Assembly (NCBI RefSeq): GCF_000227725.2
Contig: NZ_MU255056.1
Coordinates: forward strand, 593,171-648,440
Length of the DNA: 55,270 nucleotides
Source: Thiorhodospira sibirica ATCC 700588
GTDB taxonomy: Bacteria; Pseudomonadota; Gammaproteobacteria; Ectothiorhodospirales; Ectothiorhodospiraceae
Direction of reading: 5' to 3'
Below the pieces are notes generated by a model that ran no database searches, was not told where the DNA came from, and saw only the letters and a list, made by a program, of their open reading frames with translations. Within the stretch, counting starts at the first letter, position 1. Each line of letters begins with the position of its first letter. Shown piece by piece: positions 26,064 to 28,067 of this stretch. A program made the position numbers and the translations under genes.

Positions 26064-28067
26064 ATGTCAACAAAACTCGCTGATAAGCTGTACCCGGTCA
26101 GCGAGCTTGAGCCAGCGTACCGTGAGCAACTGGTACAAAAGGGATCAACGCTCGTTTTAAGGCCAGGGGAAAAATACAATGGCGCCCAGGCCCATCGCTG
26201 GCTGCTGTATCTGCTGTCTGGCAAACTGACACTGTTTGGCGCAGACACGCCCACCATCATTGAGGCCGCCACGGAGCGCGCCCACTCGCCGGTATTTGGG
26301 GAAAACAGCCTCAAAGAACACATCGTCGCCATCTATGCCTGCCGTTTTCTGCGTCTGGATCGTAACTTTTACGAAACCCTGCGCCAGGAACAAAGCCAGG
26401 CGGGCTATGAGGTGCGTGAGCTGCTGCTGGATGAAAACGAAGGCATTGTGTTTGATCAGGTCTATCAGGCCTATCTGGACAAAAAGATCAAACTGCCCAG
26501 CCTGCCAGAGATAGCTGTCAAAATCCGCCTGCTGACCAATGACCCCACCATCAACTCAGCACGCCTGGCGCGCCTGATTCAGACAGACCCCGGAACCGCC
26601 GGGATTTTGCTCCATGCCGCCAACAGCGCCATGTATACCGGCTTATATCCAGTCACGCATATTCGCGATGCGATTGTGCGTCTGGGGCTGGAAAAAACCC
26701 GCACATTGATCTTTACCACTGCGATGCGCCATGTCTTCAAAGGCAAATCCGAGCTGTTTAAACACTATCTGCACCAGCTCTGGGACCGCAGCGTCCACAT
26801 TTCTGCCTTAAGCTATGTGATTGCCCGCCACTGCCACGGTTTTGATCCGGAACGGGCCATGCTGGCCGGCCTGATCAGCGATGTCGGCCAGCTCCCCATC
26901 CTCAACTACCTGGATGAGGCACAGCTTGAACCCTCCGAAGAGGAATTGCTGAAAATTCTCGCCAAGCTGCAAGCACCCATCGGCGAGATTGTTATTCGCT
27001 ACTGGGGGCTGGAGCACAGCATTGCCACGGTGGTGCGTGAATCCAGTGACTGGCGACGCCAGACCGACAATGACAAAGCCGATTATTGCGATATTGTGCT
27101 GGTGGCTAAACTCTACCCCTATGCCCCGCCACTAGCGGGCACGGACGAGACCCCTCGCTATGATCAAGTGCCCGCCTTTAACCGCTTACCCTTGGGCATC
27201 CCGAATGAAACCCTGAAACTCAAGCTCCTGGAAGAGGCTCGCGAGGAACTCGACGGGGTGATGCGCATGCTCAAAACCGGCCATTCGCAGACAAACACAC
27301 CGGCCAAACCCGCGCCGCCGCTGCAAATACCCAGCGCACAGCCAGCCCCCGCCAGCGACAGCACGCTGGTGGCCTCACGCACACTGCCCCCGGCGAACCT
27401 GCCTGCCGCGACGCACGCGGCGCAGGCAGGTGCCAACGAGGCCCCGCCGCTGCGTGCCAAATCCTTGCGACACACCGAAATCCCCCTACAGATCGCCCCC
27501 CCATCCGTGCGCCCGGATACCCAGGATGCAGACGCGCATCCGGCCCGGCAAACGCTGGTATTGCACCCCTCCTGGCTTGGCGGCTGGGGATTTTTCCTCA
27601 CCGGCCTGGGCGGACTATGGCTCACTATCAGCGGCCTGCTCGCGCAGGCTCCCTTAACGGCCTGGCTTGCAAATGCCGCCCTCCCCGCATTTTTAAGCAT
27701 CATCCCGCTGCTACTTGGCGTTGCCATACTGCTCGCCTCTGCGGGCCTGCTCAGCGTGCTGCGTTATCGCCAACGCTACCACATCACCCCGTACGGCATC
27801 GAGGTACGCAACGGCCTGCTGCGTGTGCAGCGTCTCCACATCCCCGCCAAACACATTCGCGGCATCAGCATCCAGCAATCCACCGTACAACGCTGGCTAG
27901 GTCTGGGCAACCTGGAATTTGACAACGGCAACCACGCCAGCAGCATCCGCTTCTGCGACATCCCAAACCCCGCCCAAGCCCGCCGCCGCATCCATCAATG
28001 CCTGCGCCAACATTCCCAAACACAAGCCCCAGCCCCAACGGAAACACGATTTTCCGCCGATCACTAA
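26064..28067 (+). CDS. HDOD-domain protein fused to two membrane helices and a PH-like (DUF304) domain
   Basis: A 667-residue multidomain protein of unknown function. Residues ~20-115 resemble a cyclic-nucleotide-binding beta-barrel (LRPGEKYNGAQAHRWLLYLLSG...FGENSL), with weak conservation. Residues ~142-345 form an HDOD domain (KLPSLPEIAVKIRLL; TDPGTAGILLHAANSAMY; RDAIVRLGLEKTR; AGLISDVG, where a true HD hydrolase would have His-Asp). Residues ~405-500 are a Pro/Ala-rich linker. Two hydrophobic helices follow (~504-527 and ~535-566). Residues ~570-645 match the bacterial PH-2/DUF304 style (YHITPYGIEVRNGLLRVQRLHIPAKHIRGI). HDOD proteins are signalling or regulatory scaffolds; DUF304 domains are normally in small membrane proteins. 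Start ATG 26064 has only a weak ribosome-binding site. A stand-alone gene by spacing (209 bases from pepN). Confidence 0.85.
   Translation: MSTKLADKLYPVSELEPAYREQLVQKGSTLVLRPGEKYNGAQAHRWLLYLLSGKLTLFGADTPTIIEAATERAHSPVFGENSLKEHIVAIYACRFLRLDRNFYETLRQEQSQAGYEVRELLLDENEGIVFDQVYQAYLDKKIKLPSLPEIAVKIRLLTNDPTINSARLARLIQTDPGTAGILLHAANSAMYTGLYPVTHIRDAIVRLGLEKTRTLIFTTAMRHVFKGKSELFKHYLHQLWDRSVHISALSYVIARHCHGFDPERAMLAGLISDVGQLPILNYLDEAQLEPSEEELLKILAKLQAPIGEIVIRYWGLEHSIATVVRESSDWRRQTDNDKADYCDIVLVAKLYPYAPPLAGTDETPRYDQVPAFNRLPLGIPNETLKLKLLEEAREELDGVMRMLKTGHSQTNTPAKPAPPLQIPSAQPAPASDSTLVASRTLPPANLPAATHAAQAGANEAPPLRAKSLRHTEIPLQIAPPSVRPDTQDADAHPARQTLVLHPSWLGGWGFFLTGLGGLWLTISGLLAQAPLTAWLANAALPAFLSIIPLLLGVAILLASAGLLSVLRYRQRYHITPYGIEVRNGLLRVQRLHIPAKHIRGISIQQSTVQRWLGLGNLEFDNGNHASSIRFCDIPNPAQARRRIHQCLRQHSQTQAPAPTETRFSADH
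27397..27430. repeat. Copy of a genomic hairpin repeat inside the HDOD-PH gene
   Basis: These 34 bases are identical to 35269-35302 in the non-coding region after ftsI. The core is CCGCG-ACGCA-CGCGG flanked by CCTGCCTG and CAGGCAGG arms. Here the repeat is read in frame as part of the Pro/Ala linker (residues 445-456, NLPAATHAAQAG). The other copy has longer arms (20-base stem). Confidence 0.85.

Follow-up and report, generated by a model that had tools for sequence, protein, structure and literature searches.

Two diverged genes of Thiorhodospira sibirica combine a CNB-like and HDOD protein with a predicted membrane hairpin and a bPH_2 domain

Organization of the gene and of its product

The window analysed here is a stretch of 55,270 nucleotides from Thiorhodospira sibirica ATCC 700588 (contig NZ_MU255056.1, positions 593,171 to 648,440 of the forward strand). 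Its positions 26064–28067 (+ strand) are occupied by a genuine gene, a single unbroken frame that encodes a polypeptide of 667 amino acids (P0001). The likely start codon is the ATG at 26064; a TTG is found 12 bases upstream. The gene is preceded by lpxD-fabZ-lpxA-pepN and followed by purD and a glycogen phosphorylase gene. Residues 1–130 (26064–26453) form a degenerate cyclic-nucleotide-binding-like (CNB-like; cupin) domain, assigned by homology to relatives and by the family profile, as Pfam makes no call there in P0001. The HDOD domain covers residues 144–327 (26493–27044; PF08668, E 7.5e-36, 123.9 bits for a cut-off of 22.9), its best relative of solved structure being 3i7a (E 6.7e-23). 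It is followed by the conserved C-terminal extension of the HDOD protein family, with its DYCD and VPAF motifs in the alignment (residues 328–405; 27045–27278), and by a Pro/Ala-rich linker at about residues 406–497 (27279–27554). The linker was delimited from the alignment and from the lengths of 152 relatives, since proteins without the fusion stop before or near its start. A predicted membrane hairpin (27576–27764) leads to the bPH_2 (DUF304) domain at residues 569–643 (27768–27992; PF03703, E 1.9e-13, 50.9 bits for a cut-off of 22). The Pfam placements agree with a sequence-only reading of this DNA, which had described an HDOD domain, a Pro/Ala linker and a DUF304-type domain in one frame. 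The architecture is supported as sequence anatomy; its biology is a matter of prediction.

The same reading had proposed a sensor-like N-terminus, an HDOD domain lacking the HD catalytic pair and two membrane helices, each of which needs some adjustment. P0001 itself has no match to PF00027 even at E values up to 1, and therefore its N-terminus is termed only “CNB-like”. The sensor assignment comes from the relatives, 19 of 49 of which match PF00027 (E up to 0.01), and from the family profile, which retrieves Crp/Fnr-type and PycTIR chains weakly (E 0.016–0.09). The R-[ST]-A motif carrying the phosphate-binding arginine of the cassette is not clear after FGEN in P0001, as read from the alignment. 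The HD pair is degenerate but only half lost, S272-D273 taking its place in the residue table. Such loss is ordinary in the family, as H-D is kept in 68 of the 123 aligned relatives and the others vary. The S-D pair is consistent with, and does not prove, absence of phosphohydrolase activity. For the membrane segment, hydropathy of P0001 alone reveals a clear second helix at 537–567 (Kyte-Doolittle up to 2.5) and a weak first one at ~505–530 (up to 1.4). The average over 11 related C-terminal tails shows two humps, which fits the predicted hairpin.

Distribution of the fusion and of its soluble relatives

The first 405 residues of P0001 correspond to a widespread base family of soluble CNB-like + HDOD proteins of ~400 amino acids (Ectothiorhodospiraceae, Chromatiaceae and other Gammaproteobacteria), with 41–47% identity to the closest members. 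These differ from P0001 in the C-terminal fusion, as a PH tail is found in none of the 152 N-terminal relatives (a set in which some matches are one gene fetched twice and four are shorter than 390 amino acids). The few long sequences among them result from over-long start choices and terminate where the family normally does. In the host's order, most genomes encode the base family as two adjacent genes for proteins of ~405–410 amino acids without PH domain. The tandem pair (L035:6314–8777 in the host) is conserved across the family and its genes overlap slightly, with neighbours that vary and among which no conserved ones were seen, an organization that suggests a heteromeric pair. T. sibirica has five copies in all: this pair, a fifth copy elsewhere (L036:5057–6316) and two fusion genes, the one in the window and the paralog described in the next section. 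The fifth copy is fast-evolving, with an end branch of 1.12 in the N-terminal tree.

The order of the host is represented in the dataset by 47 genomes of one family and five genera; the fusion was found in none of the other 46. Scanning 369 genomes of the class for bPH_2 yielded no other single-PH frame of the size of P0001. The frames above 500 amino acids in that scan either contained multiple PH domains in the manner of YdbT or came from genomes whose frame shows this pattern again. The family and phylum scans gave one long single-PH frame each (for the phylum, among the matches listed). The 728-amino-acid frame of the family scan (genome G010) corresponds to a bPH_2 gene of the type neighbouring lpxA, lying inside a long open frame. 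The 639-amino-acid frame of the phylum scan (G594) is no fusion, as it consists of a frame antisense to lysC followed by a short gene of YdbS type. A single-sequence search of genome contigs retrieved nothing, and an alignment-based scan of named genomes recovered 80 loci (Ectothiorhodospira, Thioalkalivibrio, Thiorhodococcus, Thiodiazotropha and others), none with the fusion. Within the genomes searched the fusion is confined to the host lineage and is known from one genome only. The host also carries bchL-, bchM-, puhA- and puhB-like genes (L037; bacteriochlorophyll and reaction centre, read from sequence) and is thus probably a phototroph.

A second fusion gene in the same genome

The paralog lies at another locus of the T. 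sibirica genome (G000:C4 434838–437021, equivalent to L034:6839–9022) and codes for 727 amino acids. Its Pfam domains, HDOD (E 1.1e-40) followed by bPH_2 (E 3.2e-6), are arranged as in P0001. Identity between the two proteins is 50% over the N-terminal part and 33–37% over the C-terminal tail. Neighbours of the paralog are maf, a gene for an ankyrin-repeat protein and mnmE; no conserved neighbourhood suggesting a pathway was found at either fusion locus. The tree built from 69 N-terminal parts has the two fusions as sisters (support 99/98), the pair standing next to host gene B and the fifth copy (89/86). Their tails also pair in the PH tree (93/92), less firmly than the N-terminal parts do. 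As the two are sisters in both trees, the simplest reading is that a single fusion event was followed by duplication and by a long period of divergence during which both copies would have been retained.

This second gene bears directly on the question of whether P0001 is real. An architecture seen in no other genome searched is what a sequencing or assembly artefact, or a recent loss of the stop codon between two genes, would also produce, and the sequence-only reading had named a lost stop or frameshift as what would overturn it. A diverged sister gene elsewhere in the genome, with the same order of parts, speaks against such an accident. GC content at third codon positions is ~0.6–0.8 throughout the supposed junction, and this evenness across the linker gives no indication of a frameshift. 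An artefact is in effect already refuted and retains hardly any probability. The expectation that relatives would share the architecture was borne out by the paralog of the same genome, but not by the other genomes of the order nor by the N-terminal relatives.

Origin of the PH tail

The tail of P0001 is most similar to a stand-alone small membrane protein (L039), with which it aligns over 184 amino acids (E 2.5e-18); other proteins of this type match more weakly. The paralog aligns end to end with a stand-alone protein of a conjugative element (E 5e-18), including a small N-terminal domain upstream of the hairpin that recurs in further stand-alone relatives. The set of small domain, hairpin and bPH_2 is thus complete in the paralog, while the window copy has no small domain and can be at most a derivative of the conjugative-element type. 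One such stand-alone gene (L148:2201–3037) is located between genes of the STY4528 and PFL_4669 families. Its counterparts in L038 and L039 adjoin a PFL_4669/AcaB-type gene, and L038 also has TopB and an ICE-type ParB nearby. Neighbours of this kind mark PFGI-1/SPI-7-type integrative conjugative elements. A further stand-alone bPH_2 relative (L133) adjoins a TraH-like gene, a marker of a conjugation system. Such company makes it likely, not certain, that the donor of the tail was of the conjugative-element kind. The element proteins share the predicted membrane hairpin and the bPH_2 domain with both fusions and the small N-terminal domain with the paralog, but unlike the fusions they are separate chains of ~240–280 amino acids. 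The stand-alone gene (L148, also L038, L039 and L150) has no NCBIfam name. Searching plasmids with the tail gave only two weak matches, both to plain PH proteins; PADLOC gave no match, and PHROGs a single weak one (“membrane-flanked domain”).

In Ectothiorhodospira a YdbS-like bPH_2 gene adjoins fabZ-lpxA (L149:2293–3156, L146, L147), and this chromosomal gene offers another possible source of the PH module. It is not present in T. sibirica, which has only three bPH_2 genes, and lpxA is two genes away from the fusion in the window. The PH tree is compatible with this origin (AU test with the lpxA-neighbour genes as sister, p 0.50). However, the pairwise similarity of the P0001 tail to the YdbS-like gene is far weaker than to the L039 protein (79 amino acids only, E 0.001), and the additional small domain of the paralog has its counterpart in the stand-alone proteins of mobile-element type. 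We consider a chromosomal origin next to lpxA rather improbable, and a conjugative-element protein is retained as the likely donor in what follows.

Possible role of the fused proteins

P0001 is a lineage-restricted new combination of known parts. HDOD domains have been described as devoid of phosphodiesterase activity, and proteins carrying them influence motility and attachment (PMC6543031). In SadB of Pseudomonas (YbaK + HDOD) the domain stands behind a different N-terminal domain, and it serves as a regulatory module in SadB as in GsmR and HdpA of Xanthomonas. Descriptions of these three proteins mention no PH module; to their general plan P0001 adds the predicted C-terminal membrane hairpin and the PH domain. 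The bPH_2 domain of YdbS/YdbT (DUF304) in Bacillus and relatives follows membrane helices, an order also predicted for P0001, and is predicted to be cytoplasmic (PMC2817789); those proteins, unlike P0001, have no signalling domain, and their long members carry several PH domains per chain. The sequence-only reading knew of no system that joins HDOD to DUF304, and none was found described in the literature searched, the coverage of which was incomplete.

We favour, with moderate confidence, an interpretation in which P0001 is a membrane-tethered HDOD adaptor whose tail is a co-opted mobile-element module. The ancestral state in Ectothiorhodospiraceae would be the tandem pair of soluble proteins of ~405 amino acids, each with a CNB-like sensor and an HDOD domain. 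In the host lineage one copy of the second tandem gene would have been duplicated, and the duplicate fused with a small, previously separate membrane protein of the conjugative-element kind (small domain, hairpin and bPH_2). The fused gene would then have been duplicated again, the paralog retaining the small domain and the window copy losing it. The CNB-like/HDOD part would have no enzyme activity and would bind partners, perhaps its own soluble paralogs. Hairpin and PH domain would hold the signalling complex at the cytoplasmic face of the inner membrane, to which the PH domain may add an oligomerization of its own or a contact with lipid or protein. A tethered adaptor whose sensor and HDOD domains are cytoplasmic at the inner membrane is the simplest mechanism suggested by these predictions. 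That the fusion places an HDOD module on the membrane, as first proposed from the sequence, fits the predicted hairpin and domains, the location being itself a prediction.

A less constructive reading takes the PH tail for a passive membrane anchor and both fusions for drifting relics without a role. It would account for the absence from the window copy of the small domain still present in the paralog, for an HD pair that is degenerate in all five host copies and for the lack of a conserved operon. Relics would hardly be expected to keep open frames of ~2 kb in both copies despite long divergence, nor PH domains that are both still above the Pfam cut-off, and we judge this reading unlikely. 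Going beyond the tethered adaptor, we tentatively raise the possibility that the mobile-element membrane module was domesticated into a membrane-bound HDOD hub in this one, probably phototrophic Ectothiorhodospiraceae lineage, in which the two diverged copies would assemble with the soluble paralogs.

HDOD proteins occur commonly and are little understood. A membrane-pinned HDOD fusion made by nature, with its soluble tandem paralogs present alongside it as built-in controls, would open the site of action of these adaptors, and their partners, to testing. It would moreover clearly exemplify the co-option of a conjugative-element gene into an anchor module of host signalling.
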